Positions 1-64,000 of a stretch of DNA of 64,000 bases are shown here, piece by piece. The notes beneath the pieces were generated by a model, which worked only from the letters and a program-made list of their open reading frames with translations, was not told the DNA's origin and searched no databases. The DNA comes from a virus: IMG/VR virus record IMGVR_UViG_3300044692_000046, positions 1 to 64,000 of that record. The stretch is one strand, 5' to 3'. Made by a program: the position numbers and the translations under genes. Every line of letters begins with the position of its first letter. Positions within the stretch are counted from its first letter, which is position 1.

Positions 1-753
1 GGTACCGCGGCCCAGCGCCTCATCGGCGGGGATGCGGATGCGTTCCTTGCGGGCGATGTCGCGGACGGTCTGCGTGAGGATGCCGACCTTCTCGCTGATC
101 TGCGCCGAGGAGTAGCCGCGCTCGGCCAACTCCTGGATCTGCTCGCGTCGCCGTTCCGCACCGCCAGGGCTCCGATCGAACTCGGCCATCGCCTTGGCGT
201 CTCTCTTGTCGCGAACTTTGCGGACGACGTTGGCGCGAGACAGATTCCGCTCGGCCTTGCCCTCGGTGATGGCTTCCTCAAACTCGCCGTCGGAGATGCC
301 ATCGGTCATGTGGTAGATGCCCGCGCCGTTGCCCGACAACTCGTCCGAGGAGACGAAGTCCGACGGTGCCGGCTTGCGCCCCATCAACTCGGTTTCATCG
401 TGTTGTTGCTTGGCCCGGCCGATGCGCCCGGCGTAGCTGGCCATCTCGGATCGCGTCGCCACGGTGCCGGCCTCCTGGCCGCGGCGGATCGCCACCCCGA
501 TTCCGCGCTCGGCCCGCCGCACGACCTCAGCCGCTGCGAGTTCCGCGTCCTTGCCGATCTGCTTCTGTGCCGTGTACACGCGGATCGCCTCGGACTGCGA
601 CTTGAGTTCAACAAGCTTGTCGATCTCGCCGTGCTCAAGAGCCTCGGCAAGCCACGATTTCGCCCGAGTGCACGCGTCGATCACGAACTGGCCGGGGTCG
701 GCGGCCCGCTCCACCACGGAGGTGTCGGAGGCGATGAGCGCGAGCTCGGTCAT
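1..753 (-). CDS. HTH-containing protein of mobile elements, C-terminus cut by window edge
   Basis: Function not recognised. About 251 residues are visible from an ATG at 753 and the frame is still open at base 1. The N-terminal half is helical and charged (ELAAAEVVRRAERGIG around residues 72-87). The visible C-terminal part holds a likely helix-turn-helix (AERGYSSAQISEKVGILTQ, roughly residues 211-229). The start overlaps the upstream stop as ATGA, so the gene is the last visible member of a coupled minus-strand operon led by an XRE repressor-like gene. A DNA-binding accessory role is plausible but inferred. Confidence 0.75.
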   Translation of the reverse strand, partial: MTELALIASDTSVVERAADPGQFVIDACTRAKSWLAEALEHGEIDKLVELKSQSEAIRVYTAQKQIGKDAELAAAEVVRRAERGIGVAIRRGQEAGTVATRSEMASYAGRIGRAKQQHDETELMGRKPAPSDFVSSDELSGNGAGIYHMTDGISDGEFEEAITEGKAERNLSRANVVRKVRDKRDAKAMAEFDRSPGGAERRREQIQELAERGYSSAQISEKVGILTQTVRDIARKERIRIPADEALGRGT

Positions 754-980
754 GACTCGCTCCCGAAGGCTGCGTCCAGCGCGTCTCCGAAGGCGTCGCC
801 CGTGCTGGCCTTCGCCGGCTCGCGCCGTACGTCGACCGGGATCTCGGAAGCACCGAACGCGTCGTCCAGCGGGTCCGAGTCGGCGACACCCAGCACCGAG
901 AGCGGGTCGTGCTTGGAAGTGGAGCCCAACTGGACCTCGCGGCCGGCGGGCTGGGCGGGGGCGTGGATACGGGTGGTCAC
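750..980 (-). CDS. small acidic hypothetical protein, 76 aa
   Basis: Function not recognised. The GTG start at 980 overlaps the upstream stop as GTGA, and its own TGA overlaps the next ATG. This coupling on both sides is the main reason for calling a gene with no domain. The product has a proline/alanine-rich N-terminus and an acidic tail with repeated DAFG/DDAFG segments, and looks low-complexity. Confidence 0.6.
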   Translation of the reverse strand: MTTRIHAPAQPAGREVQLGSTSKHDPLSVLGVADSDPLDDAFGASEIPVDVRREPAKASTGDAFGDALDAAFGSES

Positions 981-1258
981 GAGGCCCTCCGAGATGTCTT
1001 CCTGGCGGCGGCCTTCTCGGCGCGAGACTGTGCGGATCGGCGGGCGAGCCCCTGCATGTAGGCGCGGCGCAGCTGCGCGGCCCGCACTGCCCGGACTTCC
1101 GGCGTGAGTTCGCTGTTCGGGTCGACCTCGCGCTCGAACTTCGCCATGAAGGCATCGGTGCCGGGGGCGGTCGCGGCGGCGCGGTCGAGTTCCTTGGCCC
1201 ATCGCGTGTTCGACGCGATCTGGCAGATGCGGCTGCGGTCGGACTGCTGGCCGCTCAT
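977..1258 (-). CDS. basic hypothetical protein, 93 aa
   Basis: Function not recognised. It is a helical protein with a very basic C-terminus (RRSAQSRAEKAAARKTSRR), so it may bind nucleic acid. The ATG at 1258 overlaps the stop of the XRE gene upstream (ATGA) and the stop overlaps the next GTG start, so all four minus-strand genes from 1563 down are probably translated as one coupled operon. Confidence 0.65.
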   Translation of the reverse strand: MSGQQSDRSRICQIASNTRWAKELDRAAATAPGTDAFMAKFEREVDPNSELTPEVRAVRAAQLRRAYMQGLARRSAQSRAEKAAARKTSRRAS

Positions 1259-1563
1259 GCCGCGCCGTCCTGGTCCTCGTCGGCGGCCTCATCCTCGGCG
1301 GCCTGGACGGCGTCCTGGATGCGGGCGATCAGCTCCGGGTCGTGGTTCTGCAGCATCGTCACCGGGCACTGCATGGCCTCGGCGAACTTGGCCAAAACGG
1401 TGGGGGTGGCGCTGCGGGTACCGGACTCGATCTCGGACATGTGGCCGGCGGAGATCCCCGCGAACTTCGCAAGCTGGCCCTGGCTCCAGAGGCTGTGCTG
1501 CCGCGCCCATTTGAGGGCTTCGGGGCTGTGCCCGAGGGTGCGAACTGCTCGCTCTCGCTCCAT
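1255..1563 (-). CDS. XRE/Cro-CI family repressor, 102 aa
   Basis: Helix-turn-helix DNA-binding protein. The classic five-helix HTH_3 pattern is visible at about residues 14-70 (QLAKFAGISAGHMSEIESG is the recognition region), followed by a short acidic tail. It is the first gene of the leftward coupled operon. It is divergent from a second XRE gene at 1759, and the shared gap holds a perfect inverted repeat at 1585-1610, the expected position for an operator of a lysogeny or maintenance switch. Family assignment is firm; role as immunity repressor is inferred. Confidence 0.85.
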   Translation of the reverse strand: MERERAVRTLGHSPEALKWARQHSLWSQGQLAKFAGISAGHMSEIESGTRSATPTVLAKFAEAMQCPVTMLQNHDPELIARIQDAVQAAEDEAADEDQDGAA

Positions 1564-3188: not shown

Positions 3189-4214
3189 CTAAATCCGATC
3201 CCCCAGGTTGAGTTTTCGGTGCGCTTCCCGAGCCCGCTCGGCGGCCACGGAAGCACCGTACCGGCGCACCACCGGCGAGCCCTTCGCCCACCCTCCCTGA
3301 TTCTCCAGGTCCTCCTCCGATATGCCGGCGGCCTTGGCGTGGTGTGCCCAGGTGTGCCGCAGTCGGTGCGGCTGGATCTTCGGGATTCCGGCCTGCTCGC
3401 ACCGGCGCTCCAGCATTATCCCCACCGCGCCGCCGGTCATCCGCCACTCGACCGTTGGCACCGGTCCGGATCGATCAACCCGGGACCGGACCGACAGGAA
3501 CAGCGCCTTGCTCGCGGCGCCCGGGTGCTTGCGCCGGGCCCGCAGGTAGCGCGACAGCGCCAGCGTCGCCTTCGTGCCGGAGATCGCCACGAGCCGCGGC
3601 TTGCGGCCCTTCCCGAGGATGTAGATGTCACTGCGGTTGATGTCGACGCCAGCGGTGTCCGCGCGGACCAACTCCTCGCGCCGCACCCCGGTCGCATCCA
3701 TCAGCCGGATGATCGCTTCGTCGCGGAGGTCCACGAACGTGCGGTTGCTGCAGGTGGCCAGCAGCGCGGCGAGCGCGTCGTCGTAGACGATGGGCTTCGG
3801 CGGCGACGACACGACTGGTATGGGAATCCGATCGGTAGGAAGGATCTGCCCCACCCCGGATCCCGGTTCGTCGCGAAGCCATCGCCAGAACGATTTGAGG
3901 GCCATGAGGCGCCGGTAGCGGGTGCCGGAGCTGCGGCCGATGTCCTTGAGCCAAGCCAGGAAGCCTTCGATGTGTCTGCGCTCCACAAGGGACGGTTCGG
4001 TCACTTTGGAGTCGCCGACCTCGGGATCGTGGAGGTAGTCGAGGAATTGGCGGATGTCGATGAGGTAGGCGACGTGGGTGCCTTGGGACTGGGTACGGTC
4101 GTCGTGCTGGAGGTGGAAGTACCAATCGCGGACCCAGTCGTCCCAGTCGTCGCCGTGCTCGGGGAGGATGACGCGCACGTGTTCGAGGTTATCGGCACAT
4201 GGAGCGGCGTGCAT
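3189..4214 (-). CDS. int: Tyrosine recombinase (XerC/D-like phage integrase)
   Basis: Site-specific recombinase expected to integrate and excise the element. An N-terminal SAM-like core-binding domain (about residues 25-115) precedes the catalytic domain. With ATG at 4214 (341 aa) the catalytic set is visible: Arg178 in ATGVRREEL, a Lys near 202 in GKGRKPR, His283-x-x-Arg286 in PHRLRHTWA, Trp309 in QGGWAKG at the usual His/Trp position, and Tyr319 in RRYGAS. An upstream extension to 4340 and a GTG at 4178 are alternative starts; none has a strong ribosome site. No tRNA or core attachment site is recognisable beside it. Confidence 0.92.
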   Translation of the reverse strand: MHAAPCADNLEHVRVILPEHGDDWDDWVRDWYFHLQHDDRTQSQGTHVAYLIDIRQFLDYLHDPEVGDSKVTEPSLVERRHIEGFLAWLKDIGRSSGTRYRRLMALKSFWRWLRDEPGSGVGQILPTDRIPIPVVSSPPKPIVYDDALAALLATCSNRTFVDLRDEAIIRLMDATGVRREELVRADTAGVDINRSDIYILGKGRKPRLVAISGTKATLALSRYLRARRKHPGAASKALFLSVRSRVDRSGPVPTVEWRMTGGAVGIMLERRCEQAGIPKIQPHRLRHTWAHHAKAAGISEEDLENQGGWAKGSPVVRRYGASVAAERAREAHRKLNLGDRI

Positions 4215-4397
4215 AGTCCACGATCGGACGACGTGACCGTCTGTGCGGTTGTTGTTGCAGGTGAGCCGCCATATGCGAGACTCAGGTGCAGAGCGCTGCG
4301 ACCCGCGAGAACACCCAGTTCTCCGGCACCTGAGCGGCATCCATCGGGGTCATTCGAGCGTGCGGCGCCAAGCGCCGTTCGGCCAGTTATCGGCACA
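4188..4397. repeat. 12-bp direct repeat around the integrase 5' end
   Basis: GTTATCGGCACA occurs at 4188-4199 and again at 4386-4397, in the same orientation and 198 bp apart. One copy lies inside the first integrase codons if the ATG at 4214 is used, or just upstream of the alternative GTG at 4178. It could be an arm-type integrase site or an operator. Function is unproven. Confidence 0.4.
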
Positions 4398-7131: not shown

Positions 7132-8145
7132 ATGCGGCTCCTGGTCCTCGGCGGTACCCGCTTCGTCGGGCGCGCGATCGCCGGCGCCGCCGTCGGGCGG
7201 GGCTGGCAGGTTACGACCTTCAACCGCGGCCAGGCCGGGCCCGACGTTCGTGGAGTCCAGCCGCTGCGCGGTGACCGAACCGACCAGGACGATCTTCGAC
7301 GGCTTGCTTCTGCGGGCCGTTGGGACGCGGTGGTCGACACCTCCGGCTACGTCCCGGTGAACACCCTGCAGGTCGCTCGAAGCCTCCAGGCGGTCGCAGG
7401 TCAGTACGTGTTCATGTCCACGGTGAGTGCCTACCGGGGATGGCCGATCGAGCCGTTGTCGGAGGCATCTCGGGTGCTGCTCTGCCCTCCCGACGCTGAG
7501 GCCGGCTTCGGTGAGGACACGGAGGATGGCCCCACCCGCTACGGCTATCAGAAGGCCGGCTGTGAGGCGGCCGTCGCGGAGATTTTCGGCCCCGACCGGT
7601 CTGTGATGCTGCGACCCGGCGTGGTGCTCGGGCCGGGCGAGTACGTGGGCCGCCTGCCCTGGTGGTTACACCGCGTGGCGACTGGAGGGCGACTACTCGC
7701 GCCCGGCTACCCGGCACGCACCATCCAGCCTGTCGATGTGCGGGACCTCGCCGACTTCACTGTGCGCACCGTCGAGGACCAGCTCACGGGGGCGTTCAAT
7801 GTGACCGCCCCGATTGGCCGCGAAACGTTCGGTGGGCTGCTGGAGGCATGTGTGCAGGCGACCGGTTCGCACCCCGACGTTGTATGGGTCCCAGACGATG
7901 TGCTGCTGATGCGCGGGGTTCGGCAGTGGTCTGAGATTCCGTTGTGGCGGACGTTTCCCGGCGTGTGGCATGTCGAGTCGACCAGGGCGCAGTCAGCTGG
8001 TCTTCGATGCCGGTCGCTCGCGGACACGGCCCGAGACACCTGGGCGTGGATGCGCGATGGCCAAGTGCACCTCGACGCGGAACGCTCCGGCGAGATCGGG
8101 CTCAGCCCAGAGCGAGAGCAAGCGATCCTAGCGGACGTGGCCTAG
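7132..8145 (+). CDS. NAD-dependent epimerase/dehydratase (extended SDR), 337 aa
   Basis: Extended short-chain dehydrogenase acting in the cytoplasm on an unknown, probably nucleotide-sugar-like, substrate. The dinucleotide-binding motif is at the N-terminus (LVLGGTRFVGRAI), a D-containing strand at WDAVVDTSGY, an active-site Ser/Thr at FMSTVSAYRG and the YxxxK pair in YGYQKAGCEA. Full length for the family. The gene ends four bases inside the convergent regulator gene and stands out as a metabolic gene among mobile-element genes, so it may be cargo. Confidence 0.85.
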   Translation: MRLLVLGGTRFVGRAIAGAAVGRGWQVTTFNRGQAGPDVRGVQPLRGDRTDQDDLRRLASAGRWDAVVDTSGYVPVNTLQVARSLQAVAGQYVFMSTVSAYRGWPIEPLSEASRVLLCPPDAEAGFGEDTEDGPTRYGYQKAGCEAAVAEIFGPDRSVMLRPGVVLGPGEYVGRLPWWLHRVATGGRLLAPGYPARTIQPVDVRDLADFTVRTVEDQLTGAFNVTAPIGRETFGGLLEACVQATGSHPDVVWVPDDVLLMRGVRQWSEIPLWRTFPGVWHVESTRAQSAGLRCRSLADTARDTWAWMRDGQVHLDAERSGEIGLSPEREQAILADVA

Positions 8146-9392
8146 CGAAGCGCGGTCGCCTCGGTCAGCCACTCCCCCACCTGGCCCGCCAGTTCGGCGG
8201 CCTGATCGTCGGTCCGCCATCGAGGGCCAGCCAGCACTTGCCGGACCCGCTCCATGCGTCCGGCGAGCGACACGTTGCGCAGCGGCATCGGTAGGTCCAA
8301 CACGGGACGAAGCGCGTCGGCCCCTCCGTCGCGGTTACCGCTGATCAGTCGCGCTGCGGCGAGATCGATGCGTGCTCCGTTGACCTGGGAGAACGGCTGC
8401 CGCGCGCCTGGCGCTGCGGTCAGCTCGTCGAGGGCCTGCTGTGCGTGCGTCTCCGCTTCGCTGCCGCCGCCCAGGTCGAGCCACGCAGCGGCGGCGCACG
8501 CTTCGGCGCGGGCCTGCCCGAACGCGAACTCGCCGCCCGTTTCCTCGCTGAGCGCGTCCCGATTCAGGTTGCTGTCCTCGCGGTCGGCAACCGCGCTCAC
8601 GAGGTCCTGAGTCACACCGGAGGCGTCGCCGAGGAGCGCGTGGGAACGGGCGGCGATGTAGCGAAGCCGGAACCGCGGCGCGCCGGCCGGGGCAAGTCGG
8701 AGGCCCTTCTCGTAGTAGGTGAGGGCAAGATCGGGTTCGTCGCGCCAGTTGGCGAGGGTGGCGCGCAATCCCAGCGTCCACGCCTGCAGCGACTGGTGCC
8801 CGGCGATACCGGCGTAGGAGGCGGCCGACTGGGCTAGTCGGGCGGACGCGTCCCAGCGGCGCAGGTCGAACGCTGTGCTGGCCATCAGCGCGGTGGCCTG
8901 GCCGATGATGACGTACAGGTCGGAGAGCAGGCCCGGTCGGCGGGTGTGATCCACCAACTCTCGGGCATTGCCGCGGATCTTGCGCGCCGCGGTGAAGACG
9001 TCGACCGCAGGGCGGCTGTGCACCCGTGCCAGAGCCTGCGTCTCCGACCACAGGTCCGCCACCGACGTCGGGTCGAGTTCGGTCGCGAGGATCATGTCGT
9101 CCGCGTCGGCCTCGTCGGCGGCTGCAAGCACGGCGTCTTCCTGCGTGTCCCAGCGTCCGGGCATGGCGCGCAGGTCAACGAAGCGGCGGCGAGCTTCCTC
9201 GCCGGCCTCCGATAGTGCCTGGGTGAGAGTGCGCTGCGCGTTGGCCGGCAGGATCTCTTCCCGCCAGCGCCGCCATGCGGCAACGGTGCGGACCGACATC
9301 TTGATCCGGTCGGCGAACCGTTCGTTTGTCAAGCCGGTCGCTTCTTGCAGCGCGCACAGGTCGTGGCGGGTCCATCGGATCACGTCGCTCAT
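8142..9392 (-). CDS. HTH regulator with TPR-like sensor region, 416 aa
   Basis: The N-terminal HTH is at about residues 10-55 (TGLTNERFADRIKMSVRTVA), followed by a long alanine-rich helical region of TPR-like repeats, for example ALTYYEKGLRLAPAG and AETHAQQALDELT. This architecture is widespread in actinomycete regulators. ATG at 9392 is chosen because AGGAG lies about eight bases upstream; an extension to 9746 is in frame but crosses the operator-like TGCA boxes. It is convergent with the epimerase gene, overlapping by four bases. Confidence 0.8.
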   Translation of the reverse strand: MSDVIRWTRHDLCALQEATGLTNERFADRIKMSVRTVAAWRRWREEILPANAQRTLTQALSEAGEEARRRFVDLRAMPGRWDTQEDAVLAAADEADADDMILATELDPTSVADLWSETQALARVHSRPAVDVFTAARKIRGNARELVDHTRRPGLLSDLYVIIGQATALMASTAFDLRRWDASARLAQSAASYAGIAGHQSLQAWTLGLRATLANWRDEPDLALTYYEKGLRLAPAGAPRFRLRYIAARSHALLGDASGVTQDLVSAVADREDSNLNRDALSEETGGEFAFGQARAEACAAAAWLDLGGGSEAETHAQQALDELTAAPGARQPFSQVNGARIDLAAARLISGNRDGGADALRPVLDLPMPLRNVSLAGRMERVRQVLAGPRWRTDDQAAELAGQVGEWLTEATALR

Positions 9393-9524: not shown

Positions 9525-9680
9525 ATGGAGTTGATGACCCCGGCTGAGCTTGCGGCAATCCGCGAGCGCCTCGCCTGGCTGGAGGCGGACATCGACAGCC
9601 TCACTCAGCGCGTGGATGACCTGGCCGGTCTCGCTCAAGCTCAGCGACCCGTCGATCGAGAGTCCGCACTCGTTCGCTGA
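9525..9680 (+). CDS. Possible small coiled-coil protein, 51 aa
   Basis: From ATG at 9525 a short frame encodes an amphipathic heptad segment (LAAIRERLAWLEADIDSL, then TQRVDDLAGL). Its last 80 bases are antisense to the 3' end of the GntR gene at 9601-9957, which also encodes a heptad coiled coil. The ribosome site is weak, so the gene is uncertain. Confidence 0.3.
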   Translation: MELMTPAELAAIRERLAWLEADIDSLTQRVDDLAGLAQAQRPVDRESALVR

Positions 9681-9957
9681 GCTGGTCAACCTTATCGATG
9701 ATCTCCTGATACGGGCCGGAGGCTGTCGCACTCTCTCCCGGTGCACCGATGACCTTAGTTCCCTTGCCCTGGTGTCGGTCGACGACCCGCTCCAGTTCCA
9801 GTTCGCTGAGCGCCATCCTGATCACGGTGACGGAGGAGTCGTAGCGACGCTGCAACTCCACCATGGGCGGCAGCCACTCTCCCACCGGGAACTCGCCGCG
9901 GGCGATACGTCGGCGCAGGTCGGCGGCCACCTTCTTGTAGGCGGGTTCCACAGGCAT
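9601..9957 (-). CDS. GntR-family regulator with C-terminal coiled coil, 118 aa
   Basis: The winged helix occupies residues 5-70 (LRRRIARGEFPVGEWLPPMV, SSVTVIRMALSELE, wing HQGKGTKVI). There is no ligand domain; instead a heptad coiled coil at about 85-110 (IIDKVDQLSERVRTLDRRVA). It is divergent from the excisionase-like gene that heads the conjugation module, and the shared gap carries GTGCC repeats, resembling KorSA/pra control in Streptomyces integrative elements. Target assignment is inference. Confidence 0.85.
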   Translation of the reverse strand: MPVEPAYKKVAADLRRRIARGEFPVGEWLPPMVELQRRYDSSVTVIRMALSELELERVVDRHQGKGTKVIGAPGESATASGPYQEIIDKVDQLSERVRTLDRRVAELERDRPGHPRAE

Positions 9958-9976: not shown

Positions 9977-10072
9977 CACTGTGCCTACATAGTGCCGTAG
10001 GTGTGACCTGCGGCAAAGCATGTGACTGGCATGAAGCCTTGACGGATTGTGCCTCACAGTGCACTATGAGGC
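9977..10072. promoter_or_regulatory. Divergent promoter region with GTGCC repeats
   Basis: A good promoter reads right: TTGACG at 10039-10044, 17 bp, CACTAT at 10062-10067. Overlapping it is GTGCC-tcaca-GTGCA flanked by GCCTC/GAGGC arms (10051-10072). A related copy, GTGCC-tacata-GTGCC within CACT/AGTG arms, lies at 9977-9996 near the GntR start. Two such sites in a GntR-divergent gap fit autoregulation plus control of the transfer operon. Confidence 0.55.
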
Positions 10073-10100: not shown

Positions 10101-10418
10101 GTGGGGAGCATCGCGCCGGTCGTGTCGGGTGAGACGCCTGACCAGCACGCCACGGGCCCGAACTACTGCACCGTCAAGGCACTCCAGACCGAACTCGGCG
10201 GTCCCGACTGCATCTCCCGGATGACCATCTACCGGCTCATCAGGGACGGCGAACTCGACGCGATTCAGGTCAGCCCGCAGAAGATCCTCATCCTGCGCAG
10301 CTCGATCACCGCATGGCTGGAGCGTTCCCGCGTCTCCACCGAGACCAGCGCGACCCCGACTCCCGGCATCCTCCCGCCGGAGTCGGGGTCGCGCTCTGCT
10401 GGCGAGGAAGTCGCCTGA
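10101..10418 (+). CDS. Excisionase-family HTH DNA-binding protein, 105 aa
   Basis: A MerR/excisionase-type winged HTH at about residues 25-75: CTVKALQTELGG, SRMTIYRLIRDGELDAIQV, then RSSITAWLERS. GTG at 10101 is chosen because AGGAGG lies four bases upstream; longer starts would run through the promoter repeats. It is first in the rightward conjugation operon. Such proteins act as recombination directionality factors or transfer-gene activators; which applies here is not visible. Confidence 0.75.
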   Translation: MGSIAPVVSGETPDQHATGPNYCTVKALQTELGGPDCISRMTIYRLIRDGELDAIQVSPQKILILRSSITAWLERSRVSTETSATPTPGILPPESGSRSAGEEVA

Positions 10419-10893: not shown

Positions 10894-10937
10894 GCCTGCG
10901 GGGCGGGGCGCCCCCACCAACGCTCCGCCCCGCAGGC
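10894..10937. terminator. Strong 13-bp stem hairpin
   Basis: Perfect arms GCCTGCGGGGCGG (10894-10906) and CCGCCCCGCAGGC (10925-10937) with an 18-base loop and no T-run. Placed between two genes of the same strand, it may terminate or attenuate transcription into the transfer genes. Confidence 0.6.
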
Positions 10938-11279: not shown

Positions 11280-12584
11280 GTGGACCTGCTACTCGACCCG
11301 ACCGCCCGGCGCTGGGCTGCGCTCATCGGCGCCTCCGCGGTGCTGCTCGTGGGCGTGTTCCTGCTGGTCTGGCTCGCGGGTTCCCGCTACGGCAAGCGCA
11401 AGGCCGCCGGCACCACCAAGGACGACACCAGCCGGGCTCGCACCAAGGACCGGCTGCTGTTCGCTGCGGCGCTCCTCGCGGGTCTGACCGTCTACGCCGG
11501 TTTCGCCGTCGGCTCCTACCAGGGTCTGACCGGGTTCGCCCGAGACTTCATCCACTGGTCGGACTGGCGGCAGAACATCGTGCCCGTCACCCTCGACGGC
11601 GGCACCGCCGCGTTCGGCTTCCTGGCGTTCCGGTCGGTCCAGCTGAAGAAGTCGGCGCTGCTGTGCTACATCGTGGTGCTCGGCTCGACCGGCGCGTCCG
11701 CGGTCTTCAACTTCACCGAAGGCGCCGAACATGCCTGGCAGGCCGGCGCGTTCCTCGCCTACCTGGCCTGGGCGGGCATGGCCATGGGCCATGTGTTCCT
11801 GGAGCAGTTCAAGAAGTTCGCCGGGCTCGGCCGGTACGTCAAGTACGGCGTCCGCTGGCTGACCTCCCCCCACTCGACGGCCTGCGCCGCGCTGGCGTGG
11901 GTGAACTACCCGCCCGAGGACGGCACCGAGGCGACCGTCCGGAACGGCCTGGCGCACCTCTCCGCGGTCCGTGCCCGCAAGCACTCCGAGGCTACGGGCC
12001 GGCGGGCCGCGCGTGCCATGACAGGTGGCATCACCCTGCGGCCGTGGGCGCGCCTCACCGCCGTTGCGGAGACCCTCGCGACGGTTACCGCCGAGCTCTC
12101 CGATAGCCGCGCGGAGAGGGCCTCCGAGAGCGCCCGGAGAGCCGAGGCGGAGACCCGCGTGGAGACCTTGGAGGCGAACCTCGCGGAGATGGCGGAGACC
12201 GTCCGAGCCCTCCGATCGGAGATGACCTCCGGAGACCCCTCCGGAGAGGGGGCGGAGAACCCTGCGGAGACCCCCCTCCGGCTGAGGCGGAGCACCAGCA
12301 AGAGGACCCTGGAGAGGCCCCTCCGAGCGGTGCCCTCCGGCGCCACGGTCTCCGACGAAGAGGCTGTTCAGCGGCTCCTCCGGGCGGAGGTCTCCGACGA
12401 CGACAAGCAGCCCGGCTACGCCTGGTCGAAGAACAAGGCGGTGCAGGTCTCCGGCGTGGGCTGGGGCCGCATCAACGACATCCTCCGGCTGCTCGCGGAG
12501 ACCCGCGCCAGCGGCCGGTCAGCGAACCCCTCCGGAGGGGACCGGAGCACCGGCTCCGACGACTCTGAGGAGCGTGCCGGATGA
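11280..12584 (+). CDS. DUF2637 membrane protein (Spd/transfer-associated), 434 aa
   Basis: Inner-membrane protein with about five transmembrane segments in the first 190 residues (for example residues 12-34, 59-82, 102-120, 126-145 and 153-172), matching the DUF2637 family. That family is common in actinomycete integrative elements and plasmids, where Spd proteins help intramycelial plasmid spreading. The cytoplasmic C-terminal half has a heptad helix (about 260-315) and a terminal HTH-like segment (GYAWSKNKAVQVSGVGWGRI) that could bind DNA. Its 3' coding DNA is packed with CGGAG/CTCCG pentamers. TraB lies 1.9 kb downstream. Confidence 0.8.
   Translation: MDLLLDPTARRWAALIGASAVLLVGVFLLVWLAGSRYGKRKAAGTTKDDTSRARTKDRLLFAAALLAGLTVYAGFAVGSYQGLTGFARDFIHWSDWRQNIVPVTLDGGTAAFGFLAFRSVQLKKSALLCYIVVLGSTGASAVFNFTEGAEHAWQAGAFLAYLAWAGMAMGHVFLEQFKKFAGLGRYVKYGVRWLTSPHSTACAALAWVNYPPEDGTEATVRNGLAHLSAVRARKHSEATGRRAARAMTGGITLRPWARLTAVAETLATVTAELSDSRAERASESARRAEAETRVETLEANLAEMAETVRALRSEMTSGDPSGEGAENPAETPLRLRRSTSKRTLERPLRAVPSGATVSDEEAVQRLLRAEVSDDDKQPGYAWSKNKAVQVSGVGWGRINDILRLLAETRASGRSANPSGGDRSTGSDDSEERAG
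12067..12558. repeat. Dense CGGAG/CTCCG pentamer array inside the DUF2637 gene
   Basis: By eye about 30 copies of CGGAG or its complement CTCCG fall in roughly 490 bp, where only two or three would be expected for this base composition. Copies fall in all three codon phases (gCG GAG, TCC GGA G, CGG AGC), so the pattern is at DNA level rather than a peptide repeat. Clustered short repeats are the binding sites of TraB translocases in Streptomyces plasmids. A clt-like role is possible but unproven. Confidence 0.55.
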
Positions 12585-12983: not shown

Positions 12984-13430
12984 ATGGAAGGACTGATCAC
13001 CCAGTGGGGGGTGCCGGCTGGTGTCGGCGTCATCTGCCTGATCGCAGCGGTCCTGCTGTTCACGCTCGGCAAGAAGCAGTGGCCGTGGCTGATCCTCGTG
13101 CTGATCATCGGAGCGTCCGACGCGCTCATGTCGACCCCCGTCGGAACCTACATCCACTCGGCCGTGACCTGGGCCAACACTGAGACCGGGTCCCTGATCG
13201 GGAGGTTCACGGGCGTGGTGGTCGGCGGGCTCGTGTCGATCACTGTCCTCGGCATCTTGATCATCAAGGTGATCAGGAAGGAGCGGGACAACTGGACCTA
13301 CACGGCCGGGGCACTCGCTCCGCCGTCTGTGGTGCTGATCCCGGGAGTGATTGGGACGGTGCTGACGTTCGCCATCACCCTGCCGATGTGGTTGGTGTCG
13401 CAGGTCGTCAGCCTGGCGCTGGGGTGGTGA
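12984..13430 (+). CDS. Multi-pass membrane protein, probable Spd-type, 148 aa
   Basis: Four transmembrane segments are visible: about residues 10-28, 33-50, 72-98 and 112-142. A short basic loop (KVIRKERDN) precedes the last pair. AAGGGAGGCGAGAAGCC provides the ribosome site. Small multi-pass proteins between DUF2637 and TraB genes are typical of actinomycete spread (spd) clusters, but no specific homologue is recognised. Confidence 0.65.
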   Translation: MEGLITQWGVPAGVGVICLIAAVLLFTLGKKQWPWLILVLIIGASDALMSTPVGTYIHSAVTWANTETGSLIGRFTGVVVGGLVSITVLGILIIKVIRKERDNWTYTAGALAPPSVVLIPGVIGTVLTFAITLPMWLVSQVVSLALGW

Positions 13431-13436
13431 GCTGAC

Positions 13437-14411
13437 ATGCCGATCCTGTTGATCGCGGTGCTCGTCGCCGGTGCGTGGTGGACGAAGAACACGCTGGAAG
13501 AGGTGCCGTTCGCGATGCGCGGCAAGACCTCCCCGCGGCGCCAGCTCAAGATGGAGCGCTTCAAGGCCAAGGCCGGCAACTCGGAGCGCCGCTACGGCTT
13601 CGCCCGCTACGTCGCCGACCTGTGGGCGTCGTGCTGGAAGGAGGCACTCCAGGCGCGGATGAACACCACCGACCACCGGGTGAACGCCCGCACCCAGAAG
13701 GCCATCCGCAAGCACGAGCGCCGCATCGACCGCCGGGACCGCAGGTGGGCCCGTCGTGACGATCGGCGCCAGCAGCGTCAGGTCCGCCGCGCCGAACGTC
13801 GGCTACCGCCCCCGGCCCCCGAGGAGCCTCGCGAGCCGTGCGCCGGGTGCGGCAAGTCGGGTCACGACCTGCCCTACTGCGAGAAGCCCGCCGACTCCAC
13901 CCCAGCCGACAGCGGGCCCGACGAGATGTCCGACCGCAAGTGCGGCTGGTGTGGAGGACCCGCCCACTCGTCCGCCGACTGCCCCGTCTACACGGGCAAG
14001 TCCGAACCGCAACCGAAGGAGAACACCGTGTCCGCATCCCCCGAGACCAGCACCGTCAGCAGCCTGCGGGCCGCCATGGAGGCGAAGGTGACCGAGGCGA
14101 CCGCCGAGCTGGAGGACGCCCGCGCCAACGCGAACCGCGCCGCCGGGGAGCTGGCCCGCGCCGACCAGATGGTGGCGAGCCTGCGTTCCCAGAAGGTGCC
14201 GGAGCAGACCGTCGCGCGCGTCCAGCAGCTGCAGGAGAACGCCGCCGCCGCGAAGAAGACCGCCGACGCGCGGGCCGCGCTCGCCGACTCGGACGTGGCG
14301 CTCGCGAAGGCCGCGCTGGCCGACGTGGCCGCGCACGAGCACGTCCAGGACGCCAGCACTGCGGCCGGCGGTGTCGCCAATGCGAGCTTCTACGAGCAGA
14401 GCAACAGCTGA
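13437..14411 (+). CDS. Membrane-anchored protein with two CCHC zinc knuckles and coiled coil, 324 aa
   Basis: Domain order: short hydrophobic N-terminus (residues 2-15), long very basic helix (about 75-122), two CCHC zinc knuckles and a C-terminal Ala-rich coiled coil (about 205-300). Both knuckles have exact C-x2-C-x4-H-x4-C spacing: Cys135, Cys138, His143, Cys148 and Cys169, Cys172, His177, Cys182. CCHC knuckles usually bind single-stranded nucleic acid. An internal in-frame GTG at 14028 has its own AAGGAG six bases upstream and could make a 127-residue coiled-coil-only product. It directly precedes traB; function unknown. Confidence 0.75.
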   Translation: MPILLIAVLVAGAWWTKNTLEEVPFAMRGKTSPRRQLKMERFKAKAGNSERRYGFARYVADLWASCWKEALQARMNTTDHRVNARTQKAIRKHERRIDRRDRRWARRDDRRQQRQVRRAERRLPPPAPEEPREPCAGCGKSGHDLPYCEKPADSTPADSGPDEMSDRKCGWCGGPAHSSADCPVYTGKSEPQPKENTVSASPETSTVSSLRAAMEAKVTEATAELEDARANANRAAGELARADQMVASLRSQKVPEQTVARVQQLQENAAAAKKTADARAALADSDVALAKAALADVAAHEHVQDASTAAGGVANASFYEQSNS

Positions 14412-14471
14412 CCCGGCGGGCGGTGCGGCCCACCACGAGCCGCACCGCCCCCAGAACGAAGGGATGAGATC

Positions 14472-16496: not shown

Positions 16497-16855
16497 CCGA
16501 CCACACGCTTCCCCGCCCGGCCGTCCTGCCGGAGGTCATCGCGCCTGGTGGCGCCACGGTGGCCCGCCGCGCCGCCGCCCCGCCCGCGCCGCGCGTCATC
16601 GACGTCCAGCCCACCAGCGTTCAGCAGGTGCGTCCCCGCAGCCGCAAGCGGCTCGCTCTGGCGATAGCCGCACCGTCCACGCTCGCCCTGCTGGCAAGCT
16701 CCGGCTGGGTCCTGGCCCGCGTCGACGCCGCCGTCCACCTGTTCATGTGGGTCGGCATCGTCGCGGCCGGGGCAGTCGTGGTGGCGCTGCTGATCCTGGC
16801 CGCGCTGTCGCGCCGCAAGTGCCCCGGCCTGCACTGCGCCGGCTGCAAGGACTGA
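16493..16855 (+). CDS. Two-TM membrane protein with Cys-rich tail, 120 aa
   Basis: Proline/alanine-rich N-terminus, two transmembrane segments (about 55-72 and 82-105) and a C-terminal KCPGLHCAGCKD with three cysteines that could hold a metal or disulfide. ATGA overlap with traB suggests co-translation and a role in the transfer apparatus. No family recognised. Confidence 0.6.
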   Translation: MTDHTLPRPAVLPEVIAPGGATVARRAAAPPAPRVIDVQPTSVQQVRPRSRKRLALAIAAPSTLALLASSGWVLARVDAAVHLFMWVGIVAAGAVVVALLILAALSRRKCPGLHCAGCKD

Positions 16856-16860: not shown

Positions 16861-17475
16861 ATGATGGCCCCGACCCATATGGCCGCCTCTGCTGCGGGCG
16901 CTTTGGGTGTGCTGGCCCTCGCCGCGCACGAGGGCGTCCACCTGACCATCTGGCACGCTGCGATCGGCGTAGGGGTGGCCACTGTCTCGGCCCTGATCCC
17001 GGACGCGGATCACCCGTCGTCGCGGATCTCCCGCGCCGCCGGCATCGCCACGATCGGCCTGTCGCACCTCGTGCGGTTCGTCTCGGCGCGGGTGTACGAC
17101 GTGACCCGCACCGAACGGGACCGGCCGCGCGGCGGCAAGCACCGCGGCCTGACCCACACTCCGATCGGCGCGGTCACCTTCGGGCTGTTCGTCGCGGGCG
17201 CGCTGCTACTGGCCGGGCAGTGGTGGACGCCGGCCGCCGCCTGGGCGTGGCTCGGCGCGCCGGTCGGGTTCGGCTGCCTGGCGCACATCGCCGCGGACTT
17301 CTTGACCCGCGAAGGGGTGCCGCTGCTGTGGCCGTTGAAGGTCAGCGGCAAACGCTGGCGCCGCTTCCACGTTCCGCTGGTGGCGATCAGCACCGACCAC
17401 TTCGCGGAGCGCTTCCTGTACCTGCCGGCGTTCGTGTTCGCTGCCGGCTGGTGCGCTTACCTCACCCTCACCTGA
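16861..17475 (+). CDS. YdjM-like membrane-bound metal-dependent hydrolase, 204 aa
   Basis: Resembles the YdjM/DUF457 family of inner-membrane putative metal hydrolases. Key motifs are an N-terminal PTHMAASAAG, the acidic LIPDADHPSSRI, the histidine motif KHRGLTHTPIGAV and a later HIAADFLTREGVPLLWPL, all between transmembrane helices. The ATG at 16861 follows the previous stop by five bases. The family has no proven substrate; in this operon it is the last large gene of the transfer block. Confidence 0.75.
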   Translation: MMAPTHMAASAAGALGVLALAAHEGVHLTIWHAAIGVGVATVSALIPDADHPSSRISRAAGIATIGLSHLVRFVSARVYDVTRTERDRPRGGKHRGLTHTPIGAVTFGLFVAGALLLAGQWWTPAAAWAWLGAPVGFGCLAHIAADFLTREGVPLLWPLKVSGKRWRRFHVPLVAISTDHFAERFLYLPAFVFAAGWCAYLTLT

Positions 17476-18432: not shown

Positions 18433-18521
18433 CGGTGCTGGTGGCTGGTGTGGGATTCCGCCCCTCGGCATCTCACACCAGCACGCCAGGACCGCCAAGG
18501 CAGGCGGCCAGGAAGGGCATG

Positions 18522-51986: not shown

Positions 51987-52064
51987 TCAGCCGATTTGCT
52001 TGGAGATGAGCGGCAGCACATCCTGCGCGCGGGTTGGATGGCCGGGGTTCGTAGCACCGTTCAT
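51987..52064 (-). CDS. Possible 25-residue peptide coupled to the portal stop
   Basis: ATG at 52064 overlaps the portal TGA (ATGA). The frame encodes MNGATNPGHPTRAQDVLPLI followed by SKQIG and stop. It fills the only gap between the portal and head-morphogenesis genes. Coupling makes it credible, but 25 residues is short and it may simply pass ribosomes on. Confidence 0.4.
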   Translation of the reverse strand: MNGATNPGHPTRAQDVLPLISKQIG

Positions 52065-53674
52065 GACGCCTCCTTCGCCGGGTCAGGAAGCTCCCTCAGC
52101 GCCTGCCGGCGCCTCGCCCGGTACGTGTGCTGCCACGACTCGGACAGGCGGCGAGCGTCGCGCTGGTAGGCGTCCTCGCGGGGTGCTTTGCCCTGCGCGG
52201 CGTCGTCCGGACCGCCCGGCCGGTTATCGGGGGACTCGTCGTCCGAGGGCGGGTTGTCCTGCCCGGCGAATGGCTTCAGCACGTCCGGCACCGGGGCCGG
52301 CTCGGGCTTCTCCACGCTGATCGGCTCGCCCTGTTTCGGCTCGCTCGGCTCCAGCGCTGAGCCTTTCAGCTTGGCCGCCACGCCTGCCTTCGACATGGCC
52401 TCCATGTCCGACCACAGCACCAGGTTCTGCCGGTCCACCAGCACCGCCGCGTCACCGCCGTCGACTGGCGGTTCGCCGATCTCGTCGCGGTAGCGGTTCA
52501 GGACGTACGAGCCGTTGCGGAGCCGCATGTCGCGGATCTCCTCGACCACCTTCGAGTCCCGGTAGTCGATCTCGTTGAACTCCAGGTGCCAGTCGGTGAT
52601 CCCGAAGCCGACCTGCAGCAGGATGTAGTTCAGCTTCTCCAGCACGAGCGACTGCACCGGCAGGACCGTGTTCACCCGGAACGTCTTGTCCTGGCCTTCT
52701 GCCGTACCGCCGCCGAGGTTGCCGGACTCGATGATGCCCAGCTTCGCAGGCGGCACCCCGAAACAGGCGATGATCTCGTCCCGCAGCTGCTTCGACGCGG
52801 CCAGGTAGTCGGTGACCTTCCGCGGGTCCAGCACCGACACGGCGCCGTTCTTGGTGGTGATGACCGGCGTACCCACGGCCTTCGGGCCGAGGTTGAACAC
52901 CCGGTACTTCTCCCGCCACTGCTGCACCTCGGGATCCTGGTAGGAGCCCAGGTCCACGTGCAGGCGCGGCGGGTCACCCTGCCGGAAGTTCTCCTTGATC
53001 GTCGCCTCGGTGAACAGCCACGCCGTCACCGGCAACAGCGCCTTCTGCGCTGGCGACACCCCGTACACGCCGCCCCGGGGGGCGTCGAGTGAGATGTGGA
53101 TGACCTGCTCGGGCTTGAACTCGGCCTTACGCACCCCGTCCACGGCTTGCACGTAGCCGGACACCTCGCCGTGCTGGTCGGTGACCGCCGTCATCGTCGT
53201 CGCGTCCAGGGTGTACAGCGCGACCGGCTCACCCAGCAGCCACACCACCTCGATGAACGCGTCCCCGAACAGCTTCAGGTCCGTGACCGTGTTGCGCAGC
53301 AGCTGGACCATGTCCTCACGCGGGTTGACGAACTTCATCAGCCGCGTCAGCCGCTGCACCACCGGAGGCTGCGGCGGCACCTTCCCTTCGGGAACGTCGT
53401 TGTCGTACACCACCTGCACGCCGCCGGCCGTCACCGTCCGGGCGATCAGATCGATCGGCGCCGACACCCACGGGCACGTCAGATACGCCTGGTGCAGCTG
53501 GGTGAGGATCTGCAGCCGCTCCTGCGACTCCGCGACCTGCGCTGTCGGGGAGGAAGCGCTGAGACTGACTCCGTACTCGAACCCGACCCGCTTCACCTGC
53601 GCCGCGCTCGGCTGCTCCGCCGGGGCGGCGAGCTTCTCCGACAGCCAGCGTCGCGCCCGCTCTACAGCGCCCAC
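52061..53674 (-). CDS. Portal protein (HK97 type), 537 aa
   Basis: Forms the dodecameric DNA entry vertex. Recognisable portal segments are WVSAPIDLIARTVTAGG (about 70-86), DLKLFGDAFIEVVWLLGEP, VIHISLDAPRGGVYGVSPAQ, IIACFGVPPAKLGIIESGN and FNEIDYRDSK. The C-terminal about 110 residues are acidic and Pro-rich, ending in RARRRQALREL. Overlaps the terminase gene by 13 bases. Gene order TerS-TerL-portal-protease-capsid is canonical. Confidence 0.88.
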   Translation of the reverse strand: MGAVERARRWLSEKLAAPAEQPSAAQVKRVGFEYGVSLSASSPTAQVAESQERLQILTQLHQAYLTCPWVSAPIDLIARTVTAGGVQVVYDNDVPEGKVPPQPPVVQRLTRLMKFVNPREDMVQLLRNTVTDLKLFGDAFIEVVWLLGEPVALYTLDATTMTAVTDQHGEVSGYVQAVDGVRKAEFKPEQVIHISLDAPRGGVYGVSPAQKALLPVTAWLFTEATIKENFRQGDPPRLHVDLGSYQDPEVQQWREKYRVFNLGPKAVGTPVITTKNGAVSVLDPRKVTDYLAASKQLRDEIIACFGVPPAKLGIIESGNLGGGTAEGQDKTFRVNTVLPVQSLVLEKLNYILLQVGFGITDWHLEFNEIDYRDSKVVEEIRDMRLRNGSYVLNRYRDEIGEPPVDGGDAAVLVDRQNLVLWSDMEAMSKAGVAAKLKGSALEPSEPKQGEPISVEKPEPAPVPDVLKPFAGQDNPPSDDESPDNRPGGPDDAAQGKAPREDAYQRDARRLSESWQHTYRARRRQALRELPDPAKEAS

Positions 53675-55155
53675 GGGTCACCCCCGTTCAGCACTGGGAA
53701 GCCGCCGATGGAGGGCACAGGCGCATGAATCGCGTGCGGGTTGGTGGCCTGCGGATCGAGGGTGGTAGTCGACACCTCCCCGTCCTCCGGGAAGTGGAAC
53801 CGCGACTCGGTGCCCAGGTTCGTCAGCAGGTAGCGCAGCGCGTCTGGGGCGTGGTCCTCGGAGTTCGTGTCCGCGTCCTCCGGGTTACCGGTTGTCGCGT
53901 GCGGTAGCGCCGCCAGCGTCCGGATCAGATTCGAGCAGGTGCGGAACACGTGCAGCTTCGGGCACTTCTCCCAGCCCTGCGCCCGGTGATGCGGACACGC
54001 CGGCGCCTCAGCCAGGTAGGAGTGGATGCGCTGCCAGCCGATCACCCGCGACCCCGGGCCCTTACCGGCGGCAGTCAGCGGCACACCCTCGTCGGCGTAG
54101 ACCTCCGCGATGGGTTTCGCGTCGCCTCTAGTTGCCCACATGGCGTCGTCGGCGAACCGGCCCGCGATGCTCTCCCCGTCAGCCTCGGCCGCGAGGATTC
54201 GCTTCGCCTGCTCCGACTCGCCCACCTGCACGTCGTACAGCTCGCGGTACACCCAGACGCGGCCGTCCTCGTCGACAGCACCCCACAGCACCGCCCACGG
54301 CTTCGAGAAACCCCAGTCCAGGCCGTTGTAGCGGCGCCACGAGCCGGCCAGCGGGATCGGGTTGAGGGTGTGCCGGTCGTAGCGCCACTCCCCGAACACC
54401 TGACCCGCGAACTGGTCCCAGTCGCCGTCACGCATCGCCGCCCGGCGCTGCGGATCCGGGATCGAGTCCAGCCGCTTGAAGTACCCGTCGTCCAGGTGCG
54501 GATTGTCGGTGGCCTTCGCCTGGATGAACCGCACCGACAGGCCGTTGTCGTCGGTAACGACCTGCTTGCCGTGGTCGGTGGCGTCGATGTAGCGCAGCTT
54601 CACCTGCCCGTGCGACGGGCCGCCCGGGTTGCAGGTGGAGCGCACCCCGATCACCGGCACCGTGCCGTCGGAGCGGATCCGCTCGAACCGCAGAATGTCG
54701 ATCACGCCCGGCGGCATCAGCGTCGCCTCATCCACCAGCAGCAGCTGATACTGGCCGCCCTGCCGGCGAGACGCGTCCGTCACCGACTCCAGGTACCGGA
54801 ACCGGATCAGCGACCCGTTCGGGAACCGCAGCTCCCGCTCCGTGCCGTTCCAGCGCGCACCCAACGCCTCCGCGTAGCCGAACTTCCCCAACGTCGGGAA
54901 GATCGACTCGTTGAGTTCGTCGTAGGTCCGGCGCACCAGCAGCACCCGCATCTGCGGGAAGCGGGCCGCCGCCCTGATGCCCTCGGCTACGATCGCGACG
55001 CTTTTACCGCCGCCGGCCGCGCCGCCGTACAGCACGTCGAACTCGGTCGCGGCATGAAACTCGGCCTGCCGCTCCGACGGGGCGTAGCCGATCTCGGCGA
55101 ACACATCGACTGCGGCGAGGCGGTCCTGGTCCCGCCGCTGCTTCTCCAACTGCAA
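53662..55155 (-). CDS. Terminase large subunit, 497 aa
   Basis: DNA packaging ATPase/nuclease. Counting from the upstream frame start at 55239, Walker A is GGAAGGGKS at 72-80, Walker B LLLVDE at 166-171 followed by the coupling motif STCNPGG near 201, and the nuclease acidic residues are in YNGLDWGFSKP (Asp308), near DDAMWATRGD, and EDHAPDALRYL. TTG at 55155 is chosen because it follows the TerS stop by one base (TAGGTTG); the frame extends to another TTG at 55239, which would overlap TerS by 83 bases. The nuclease identity follows from motif order. Confidence 0.9.
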   Translation of the reverse strand: MQLEKQRRDQDRLAAVDVFAEIGYAPSERQAEFHAATEFDVLYGGAAGGGKSVAIVAEGIRAAARFPQMRVLLVRRTYDELNESIFPTLGKFGYAEALGARWNGTERELRFPNGSLIRFRYLESVTDASRRQGGQYQLLLVDEATLMPPGVIDILRFERIRSDGTVPVIGVRSTCNPGGPSHGQVKLRYIDATDHGKQVVTDDNGLSVRFIQAKATDNPHLDDGYFKRLDSIPDPQRRAAMRDGDWDQFAGQVFGEWRYDRHTLNPIPLAGSWRRYNGLDWGFSKPWAVLWGAVDEDGRVWVYRELYDVQVGESEQAKRILAAEADGESIAGRFADDAMWATRGDAKPIAEVYADEGVPLTAAGKGPGSRVIGWQRIHSYLAEAPACPHHRAQGWEKCPKLHVFRTCSNLIRTLAALPHATTGNPEDADTNSEDHAPDALRYLLTNLGTESRFHFPEDGEVSTTTLDPQATNPHAIHAPVPSIGGFPVLNGGDPWAL

Positions 55156-62270: not shown

Positions 62271-63106
62271 GCCGCCCCTCCTGCCTGCTCCGCTTCCATC
62301 GCCGCCAACTCGGCCTCCACCCGCTCGTCGAACTCCCCAGGACGTGGCTCCCTGCGCCCCGGCACGCGCCGTGGGCCCACCAGTGCGTGGCAGAACGAGC
62401 ACTCCTCCCACGCCGACAGCGGGAACCGCTTCAACGTCAGCAGGTCGCATTTCGGGCACGGCACCGGCAGCGCCTTGGCCGACATGCCCGTGACGCGGCG
62501 CATCAGCGCCAGATGCTCCCGCAGCTCCTCGCAGAAGTCCCCGAACGCCTCATCGTGGTCCGCCGCCCAGTCCACCCGCGCCCGCAGCCAGCCGGCCAGC
62601 CGGTCCGGGGTCGGCACCGGCAGCCGCTCCGGCAGCATGTCGGCGCGCGCCTCCTGCCAGTACCTCGCCCACTGATCCAGCCACCGCAGCGTCGGAATCT
62701 CCCCGGTCTGATCGTTCGCGGGCACCAGCTCCGGGGAGCCGTCCGCGGCGCGCACCAGGTGCCGTTCCCACGTCACCACCTGCCGGGAGCCGCCCTCCAC
62801 GTCCACTGTCACGACTCGCCGCTGTGTCACGATGTGCGGCACCAGCCCGTCAGACACGCCGTCCCGTAGCCGGTGGGAGTGGATCGACGGGACGGGCAGC
62901 ATCAGGTCCAGGGCGTGCAGGTTCAGCCGGCCTGTCGAGGTCAGCACCTCATCCGGCAGGTGGTGCGTCCACAGGTCCACCAGTTCGTCCAGCGCGGTCC
63001 GCGGCCACTGCCGGCACCACCAGCAGATGTCGCCCTCGCCGGGTTTCGGGTCGCGGCGGAAGCACAGGACGCAGGAGCCTTCCGGCTGCACGGTCTCCTC
63101 GGTCAT
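62267..63106 (-). CDS. Zinc-finger protein, 279 aa
   Basis: An N-terminal treble-clef-like site (SCVLCFRRDPKPGEGDICWW then CRQW) and a C-terminal four-Cys zinc ribbon (VPCPKCDLLTLKRF and EECSFCHALVG) flank a helical middle that includes HHLPDEVLTSTGRLN and an HTH-like LALMRRVTGMSAKALPVP. DNA binding is likely; resembles regulatory/late-control proteins of actinophages without clear family. ATGA overlap with the upstream gene. Confidence 0.65.
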   Translation of the reverse strand: MTEETVQPEGSCVLCFRRDPKPGEGDICWWCRQWPRTALDELVDLWTHHLPDEVLTSTGRLNLHALDLMLPVPSIHSHRLRDGVSDGLVPHIVTQRRVVTVDVEGGSRQVVTWERHLVRAADGSPELVPANDQTGEIPTLRWLDQWARYWQEARADMLPERLPVPTPDRLAGWLRARVDWAADHDEAFGDFCEELREHLALMRRVTGMSAKALPVPCPKCDLLTLKRFPLSAWEECSFCHALVGPRRVPGRREPRPGEFDERVEAELAAMEAEQAGGAA

Positions 63107-63993
63107 CGCCGCGACCCCCTGAGTTCGTAGGGTCGGCCGGCGCCGACGATGGAGTCGATGGATCTCCACGTCGGGACCGGCTCGTTGTCGTAGGGCTCGA
63201 ACAGGACAGCCACGCTCCTGAGTGGCTGGCGCGTTCGCTCGGCCAGCCGGGCGACCACCGCCGCCTCTAGTGCCCCGTGCTTCTCGTGCTCCAGCGGCGG
63301 GCGGTACTGACGCTCCCAGCCCGCCTCGTGCGCCATCGAAGGCGCGGGCGGTAGAGGTGGCGGCTCGTACGTCGAGACGGTGTAGGACGGCGGCGGCCAC
63401 TCCTCTAGCGAGTACGCCTCTTGGCCCACCGTCAGCGAGGTCCCATCAATCTGGGAGCCTCCGATGATTTCCCGCAGGAAGTTGCCGGCGTAGGCGCCAA
63501 AACCCGATGGGTAGGGCGTGAGCTCCACGGGGCACGTCGCTCCGCTGGTGCGGACCGCGGAACCGTGGTGTCCGCCGCCGGCTATGTTGTCCAACTCGGC
63601 ACGCGGGACAGCTCGTTCCCCCGACCCATCGTCCATCAGGAGCGTGCCCTCACGGCGACAGAACGCGCATGCGCACGCGAGGTCCACGGTGAGCGTGACG
63701 GTGCCCGCATCTCTTCCAGGTTGGAATCCGGCCTCGGCCACGACCTCTTCAATCGGTCGCCACAGGCCAGAAGGCGTCGGCGTTGATTTCGGCGCCCACC
63801 GCATCGAGTCGCCACGCGTGTAGCCCGACATGTCGCTGTCCAGCGGGAAGAGTTGCCGTGCTCCTACCTGCTCGGCCGTCCATCCGCGCTGGCACGCTGG
63901 CGAACAGAACCAGCCCGACTCGCCATCTGCGGGCAACGGCTCGCCGCAGTGCGCACACCGCTCCTCGACTGCGCTGTCGATGGCGTCCAGCAC
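63103..63993 (-). CDS. Hypothetical protein with N-terminal zinc ribbon, possibly cut by window edge
   Basis: Function not recognised. CAHCGEPLPADGESGWFC followed by SPACQRGW near residues 13-38 is a zinc-ribbon knuckle pair. ACACAFCRREG at about 110 is a second Cys cluster. The rest is Pro-rich with AALVVARL-type helices late. The GTG at 63993 is only seven bases from the window end and the frame stays open, so the true start may lie outside. Confidence 0.6.
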   Translation of the reverse strand: MLDAIDSAVEERCAHCGEPLPADGESGWFCSPACQRGWTAEQVGARQLFPLDSDMSGYTRGDSMRWAPKSTPTPSGLWRPIEEVVAEAGFQPGRDAGTVTLTVDLACACAFCRREGTLLMDDGSGERAVPRAELDNIAGGGHHGSAVRTSGATCPVELTPYPSGFGAYAGNFLREIIGGSQIDGTSLTVGQEAYSLEEWPPPSYTVSTYEPPPLPPAPSMAHEAGWERQYRPPLEHEKHGALEAAVVARLAERTRQPLRSVAVLFEPYDNEPVPTWRSIDSIVGAGRPYELRGSRR

Positions 63994-64000
63994 GCTGTCC

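Follow-up and report, generated by a model that had tools for sequence, protein, structure and literature searches.

The virus record examined here, whose first 64 kb form the window (64,000 of 95,148 bp), is probably a temperate siphophage of a mycelial actinomycete, about 95 kb in size and at least sometimes circular, with a built-in plasmid-type transfer module. This reading is based on observed features: phage and transfer genes on one molecule, their content, the superfamily of the translocase, synteny with plasmids and recurrence in related phages. The two ends of the record share 127 identical bases, so the record closes as a 95,021-bp circle, an appearance that a circularly permuted virion genome would share. 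A siphophage head-tail-lysis block and a TraB-type module (10.1-17.5 kb) both lie on this closed molecule, and a phage structural operon and a transfer gene share a single replicon, as in the pZL12-type plasmid-phages. The initial annotation had proposed that phage and transfer functions belong to one element with no host genes between them; the circle bears out the former, and the latter holds even more strongly since the record is circular. Its term "conjugative prophage" is apt as regards one closed element but not as regards an integrated state: the record is a closed circle without host DNA and has no host junctions with attL/attR. Given a circle with one terminase, virion DNA is expected to include the transfer module, and judging from its sequence the element may spread both as a virion and as a plasmid-like element. 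An assembly chimera of phage and plasmid in the metagenome is extremely improbable: one virus contig without host context makes up the record and the 127-base overlap equals a common assembler word size, but composition is continuous and the same phage-traB association is seen in isolate genomes.

The phage functions listed in the initial annotation were recovered by our searches. A repressor-like protein of 207 aa with a double helix-turn-helix (1759-2382, + strand; Pfam HTH_31 2e-15, HTH_3 3e-7; PHROG transcriptional repressor 1.6e-10) precedes the integrase, an XerC/D-like tyrosine recombinase (3189-4340, - strand; Pfam Phage_integrase 1.8e-20; phrog_1 integrase 2.6e-33). A second XerC/D-like tyrosine recombinase lies beyond the window at 65769-66854 of the record, which corrects the earlier description. 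Then come an NAD-dependent epimerase-like cargo gene (7132-8145, + strand; Epimerase 5.9e-11) and an NsdA-family TPR-like regulator (8142-9392, - strand; NCBIfam NF053720 7.5e-21). The small-gene array comprises around 30 + strand genes (17491-26436), mostly unique and with few homologues. Head, tail and lysis genes form a late block on the - strand (28.3-55.2 kb), running from the large terminase TerL (53662-55155; phrog_2 6.7e-36) through portal (52061-53674; phrog_12 1.5e-40), major capsid protein (47254-48663; phrog_752 1.7e-23), tail tube/minor tail protein (43682-44854; phrog_290 1.9e-21), tape measure protein (39277-42525; phrog_2723 8e-64), two paralogous tail tip/fibre proteins (36175-39258 and 33649-36156; phrog_5313 2.9e-59 and 2.4e-81) and a GH25-type endolysin (30301-31245; phrog_3084 1.2e-41) to the holin (28344-28700; phrog_9752 5.6e-16). 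No match to ParA (AAA_31) was found on the element, its only ParB-like gene being DUF6551; Rfam returned no match, the plasmid collection held no near-identical DNA, and searches for a tRNA-based attP (T-loop pattern, ARAGORN) gave nothing convincing. A tRNA-Pro call within traB was taken as spurious.

The transfer module brings together a GntR regulator, a DUF2637-like membrane protein, a 4-TM protein, a coiled-coil protein, a TraB/FtsK-superfamily translocase and a YdjM-like protein. The GntR gene (9601-9957, - strand; Pfam GntR 1e-15) is divergent from the transfer operon, with half-sites CACTGTG/CATAGTG nearby (9977-9994 and 10055-10068), and its product is a candidate repressor of that operon. 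On the + strand the operon opens with an excisionase/MerR-type HTH protein (10101-10418; HTH_17 9.4e-8, excise 2e-6), followed by a 434-aa membrane protein with three TM helices and a coiled-coil tail (11280-12584) that resembles DUF2637 proteins adjoining plasmid traB genes, though weakly (profile match 1.8e-4). Next are a small 4-TM membrane protein, Spd-like by position (12984-13430; profile match 1.2e-15 to the same-place gene of plasmid modules), and a coiled-coil protein with a hydrophobic N-terminus (13437-14411; 7.7e-11 to the plasmid gene directly upstream of traB). Immediately 3' of traB lie a small protein with two predicted TM helices (16493-16855) and a YdjM-like inner-membrane protein (16861-17475; Pfam YdjM 5.4e-23 for the longer frame). 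The contiguity of a TraB-like translocase with small membrane proteins, as initially annotated, is thus upheld, while the accompanying DUF2637 call is weak (5.4e-4, under the Pfam cut-off); the lack of a relaxase agrees with our search, in which TrwC relaxase was not found.

The TraB-like protein itself (14550-16496, + strand, 648 aa; alternative GTG start at 14472) is a membrane DNA translocase of the FtsK/HerA superfamily with two N-terminal TM helices (46-64 and 108-126), the Walker A motif GDPRTGKS and LPILEMTIDE for Walker B. Searched alone it had no Pfam match; its family profile matched FtsK/SpoIIIE (4e-21) and EccC (5e-13) in PDB, and the C-terminus matched winged-helix chains at just 0.002. 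An AlphaFold model from three sequences reached pLDDT 33 and was discarded. Streptomyces plasmids move between hyphae by this kind of membrane DNA pump, and we infer that the module moves DNA between cells. Octamers of the pSVH1-type clt (GACCCGGA) are scattered without a cluster. Repeats alone mark a candidate clt at the start of traB (14418-14485; a 12-bp inverted and a 12-bp direct repeat), which might function as such by analogy with the clt of pWTY27 (PMC3583192). The longest perfect inverted repeat of the 95-kb circle, 17 bp, lies at 10347-10395 (random controls reach 11-12 bp), and another of 17 bp (94%) at 10894-10937 (z = -7.5) is a candidate attenuator-like hairpin or cis site.

With tblastn we found no such TraB in deposited phages and, since TraB peptide patterns had no match in IMG/VR, relatives were reached via the terminase instead. 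They occur in Streptomyces, Kitasatospora, Catenulispora and Amycolatopsis, and the TerL-portal-MCP-tube-tape measure block is homologous and collinear with a pAmyja1-related siphophage lineage. Among the relatives with which this phage shares head-tail genes, many encode a TraB/FtsK-like membrane ATPase, and in two (G002 and G009) YdjM-like homologues lie near traB; no translocase was detectable in roughly half of the related contigs of large size (G004, G005, G006, G008 and G010). A chromosomal relative in S. olivoverticillatus (capsid 72%, terminase 63%) allowed the empty-site comparison called for by the initial annotation: its traB lies inside a 74.5-kb prophage whose ends are 28-bp direct repeats, and the unbroken site is present in other genomes of the genus. 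Streptomyces and Micromonospora plasmids, as well as PhiNon1, have the genes of the module in the same order, the significant matches there being the 4-TM and coiled-coil genes. In the tree the window TraB is sister to a Micromonospora plasmid TraB (100/100), a pairing that suggests repeated plasmid-phage exchange of TraB.

AICEs such as pSAM2 are like the window element in having a TraB-type dsDNA translocase, a tyrosine integrase and a regulator beside tra, without a relaxase. In size they fall below it (one survey gives 11.9-36.2 kb, PMC9513070); they lack virion genes and are defined by Int, Rep (RepSA/RepAM/Prim-Pol) and Tra (PMC3218068). A search of the element for a Rep of the Prim-Pol type gave no match, and its Int and Tra genes are not framed by att-type repeats around the module. 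That a separate AICE-like conjugative element, inserted in or beside the phage, merely shares its contig is very unlikely. The module does carry regulators of its own besides an excisionase-like gene, and its traB is plasmid-like, but the circle is closed and without host genes, no att-like direct repeats bracket the module above chance, and the relative's traB sits within defined prophage ends. A prophage beside an unrelated integrative element, the main alternative in the initial annotation, is unlikely because the element is closed, such repeats are missing and the pairing recurs in related phages; the circle was our ground for rejecting that arrangement, while the repeats and the recurrence led us to dismiss an AICE inserted within the phage.

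The FtsK-like ATPase could instead serve the phage, either in dimer resolution and segregation of a circular prophage with the XerC/D-like recombinases or in replication, and not in conjugation. Two such recombinases are on the element, FtsK/SpoIIIE-like proteins form an established category among phage proteins, with a replication role suggested in Geonosis (PMC11536984), and translocases are frequent across this lineage; nevertheless we consider this unlikely, as the ATPase gene is one of several in a membrane module that has homologues on plasmids, apart from recombinase and replication genes, and its closest tree relative is a plasmid protein. Still more doubtful is a reading in which recombination brought the module in from a plasmid and it now rides along, decayed or silent, without a function. 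Its detection in only some relatives and the divergence of their translocases, down to 19-34% identity, would fit such a passenger, but all frames are open, the main genes have the high third-position GC (0.90-0.93) that is usual for coding DNA, Walker A is intact, the operon is compact and several lineages retain the module.

Phage and transfer genes on one element have precedents. The Streptomyces plasmid-phage pZL12/PhiZL12 (NC_013420, 90,435 bp; relative pSLE1) is likewise circular, about 90 kb, and combines a phage operon with tra, whose FtsK/SpoIIIE-like product (gp071) meets our family profile distantly (1.7e-11). Its conjugal transfer depends on tra and two neighbouring genes, according to PMC3583192 (pZL12 results are also cited in PMC4487206); it has ParA/ParB, whereas no ParA was found on the window element, and none of the window's head or tail genes has a homologue there. 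PhiNon1 of Nonomuraea gerenzanensis (NZ_LT559120, 59,257 bp) has DUF2637, small genes, coiled-coil and TraB genes in the order of the window, but its head genes differ and what the two have in common is limited to genes at the tail end (tape measure region and fibres); the accessible part of its description (PMC5431353) presents a plasmid-phage seen circular and integrated at tRNA-Val and does not mention a transfer module. The circular plasmid pAmyja1 of Amycolatopsis japonica (NZ_CP008954, 92,539 bp), similar in size, is homologous over the whole head-tail block (terminase 61%, capsid 50%, tube 52%) and encodes a membrane FtsK-like protein (PHROG FtsK/SpoIIIE 2.5e-8; P-loop AMTQVGKS) very distant from ours (E 0.0086 with profile A2). 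In another phylum, the "conjugative prophage" Phi1207.3 of Streptococcus pyogenes shows conjugation-like transfer; the accessible part of PMC4260502 reports no transfer module of the FtsK type. Given pZL12/PhiZL12 and PhiNon1, the combination of phage and conjugation is not new in kind, and the element is a variant of an existing category; what is new is a different siphophage lineage, which also integrates.

DNA transfer, its regulation and its cis site are what we infer for a temperate phage with two routes of spread. In the virion route, as its genes suggest, induction would lead to replication by a DnaB helicase and RecT/YqaJ proteins for recombination, all encoded by the element itself, then packaging and lysis. 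In the plasmid-like route, relief of the GntR regulator would allow expression of the operon from 10.1 kb; TraB would form a hexameric motor in the membrane, kept in place by the small membrane proteins, bind a cis site, perhaps 14418-14485, and pump double-stranded phage DNA across septa in the mycelium and into neighbouring hyphae, without relaxase or virion. We speculate, only tentatively, that the whole siphophage lineage keeps a TraB-type translocase, swapped repeatedly with plasmids, as a non-lytic second infection route, prophage dsDNA passing through septa and between touching hyphae, and uses virions for distance only.

Phage and conjugation are usually handled as separate gene-transfer routes. 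The dual-route idea is directly testable in culturable Streptomyces, as the lineage offers a dsDNA pump, clean-ended integrated members, an empty site and apparent pump exchange with plasmids. If true, it would explain how a virus spreads inside a multi-compartment mycelium without lysis.

The virus record, of which the window covers bases 1-64000, totals 95,148 bp and repeats bases 1-127 at its end with 100% identity, so that it closes as a 95,021-bp circle with a GC content of 68.7%. The 127-base overlap has the length of a common assembler word, and the circle may represent a plasmid-like or excised form, or else a packaged genome with circular permutation; under every one of these readings the phage and transfer genes lie on one element, as the initial annotation had proposed. 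Its main alternative, a prophage next to an unrelated integrative element, is unlikely given the circle and the lack of exact direct repeats above chance bracketing the transfer module (10.1-17.5 kb), the longest being 15 bp against 16-20 bp for controls anywhere.

Gene calling relied on codon statistics learned from the sequence itself, and annotation on HMM searches. Late genes are on the − strand, starting with the large terminase (53662-55155) and followed by portal, major capsid, tail tube, tape measure, two paralogous tail-tip/fibre proteins, a GH25-type endolysin and a holin. The tail-tip/fibre genes are adjacent (33649-39258) and share a PHROG, a second adjacent pair encodes two 178-aa proteins (32059-33159) matching the same genes in relatives, and one late gene contains a 66-bp tandem repeat in 2.5 copies (45946-46111). 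Outside the window, the gene for a second tyrosine recombinase (65769-66854) precedes genes for an endonuclease VII, a DnaB helicase, a DnaC/IstB-like ATPase, RecT, a YqaJ nuclease, two DNA methylases and WhiB. Neither ParA nor a TrwC relaxase was found in the HMM-annotated record, the latter in agreement with the earlier description of the module as relaxase-free. A metabolic-type NAD-dependent epimerase gene is located at 7132-8145, and an epimerase is also encoded by plasmid pS1D4-14.2.

Divergently from a GntR regulator gene (9601-9957), the transfer operon encodes an excisionase-type HTH protein and then 3-TM DUF2637-like (below the Pfam cut-off), 4-TM, coiled-coil, 648-aa translocase, 2-TM and YdjM-like proteins. 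This gene order is common to Streptomyces plasmids, Micromonospora plasmids and the Nonomuraea plasmid-phage PhiNon1, with sequence support from the 4-TM (1.2e-15), coiled-coil (7.7e-11) and DUF2637-like (1.8e-4) genes. The translocase has two N-terminal TM helices, a Walker A (GDPRTGKS) and a Walker B (ILEMTIDE). As a single sequence it had no match in Pfam and reached FtsK in PDB at 0.91 only, and a profile built from ten relatives hits FtsK/SpoIIIE (4e-21), FtsK (9e-15), EccC (5e-13) and DNA translocase coupling proteins (3e-9). ARAGORN called a tRNA-Pro, most likely spurious, within the traB coding sequence (15944-16032, − strand).

Terminase relatives (48-73% identity) were found at 50 IMG/VR loci and 20 genome loci, the latter in Streptomyces, Kitasatospora, Catenulispora and others, and the whole head-tail block is common to the circular Amycolatopsis plasmid pAmyja1. 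Among 11 related contigs >50 kb, the translocase is present in five (G001, G002, G007, G009, G011), borderline in G003 and undetected in G004, G005, G006, G008 and G010. It is also present in a 30.6-kb contig (G019), S. xanthochromogenes, pAmyja1 (via PHROGs), pS1D4-14.2 and, distantly, pZL12. The nearest genome relative, Streptomyces PH10-H1 (terminase 72%), has a 994-aa translocase ORF (1.4e-11). Since all these members went into the motor-domain profile, the way they score against it does not count as independent evidence. Genomes behind related loci matched the translocase profile in 19/19 cases, many at ~1e-17 with ORFs of ~930 aa resembling chromosomal FtsK. Judged by its genes, pS1D4-14.2 (NZ_CP041606, 98,815 bp), deposited as a plasmid and typed non-mobilizable, is another phage-plasmid, encoding portal, capsid, tape measure and a TraB-like protein. 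Both S. olivoverticillatus (4e-94) and pS1D4-14.2 (5e-52) have TraB-like proteins that match phrog_24831, a family of unknown function with 700 positions, for which TraB/FtsK-type translocase is thus a probable annotation.

S. olivoverticillatus carries the phage genes on a chromosomal contig of 758 kb, where two exact 28-bp direct repeats (416,755 and 491,261), 74,506 bp apart, delimit a 74.5-kb prophage. A MerR regulator flanks it on one side and a hydrolase gene on the other, and an integrase is on the right side. The traB homologue (452,898-454,931) and a DUF2637-like gene are inside this interval. The flanks joined over one repeat copy match many other genomes of the genus unbroken (e.g., 85% across all 728 bases), while in S. 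olivoverticillatus itself the two halves lie apart. The empty site suggested as a check by the initial annotation is thus established for this relative's prophage, a result that does not extend to the window element itself. The 28-bp repeats fall in the promoter region of the MerR regulator.

Streptomyces TraB proteins assemble into hexamers that pump dsDNA and bind to repeats close to their own gene (PMC9513070, PMC3583192). An inverted plus direct repeat at 14418-14485 is a candidate cis site by this analogy, and we infer that the module would carry the phage circle from one compartment or hypha to another. The transfer module holds three of the circle's 14 strongest hairpins. The longest perfect inverted repeat of the circle (17 bp, 15-bp loop; 10347-10395) sits within the excisionase-like gene at its 3′ end, and CACTGTG/CATAGTG half-sites at 9977-9994 and 10055-10068, in the GntR gene leader and transfer-operon promoter region, are candidate operators.

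pZL12/PhiZL12 is reported to combine a phage cycle with conjugation, which requires tra and two adjacent genes (cited in PMC3583192), pSLE1 is homologous to pZL12 (PMC4487206) and PhiNon1 occurs in circular and integrated forms (PMC5431353); the transfer module that we see in PhiNon1 is unmentioned in the consulted passages of its description. The combination is therefore already known, and what sets the window element apart is its phage lineage, its translocase clade, the absence of ParA and relatives integrated in the chromosome. In a tree of 15 translocases, whose deeper order is unsure owing to long branches, the window protein and one from a Micromonospora plasmid form a pair (100/100), and phage proteins are interspersed among plasmid ones. 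Related phages have ~60% of terminase residues in common but only 19-34% of translocase residues. The simplest reading is that the module has been repeatedly exchanged between plasmids and this phage lineage.
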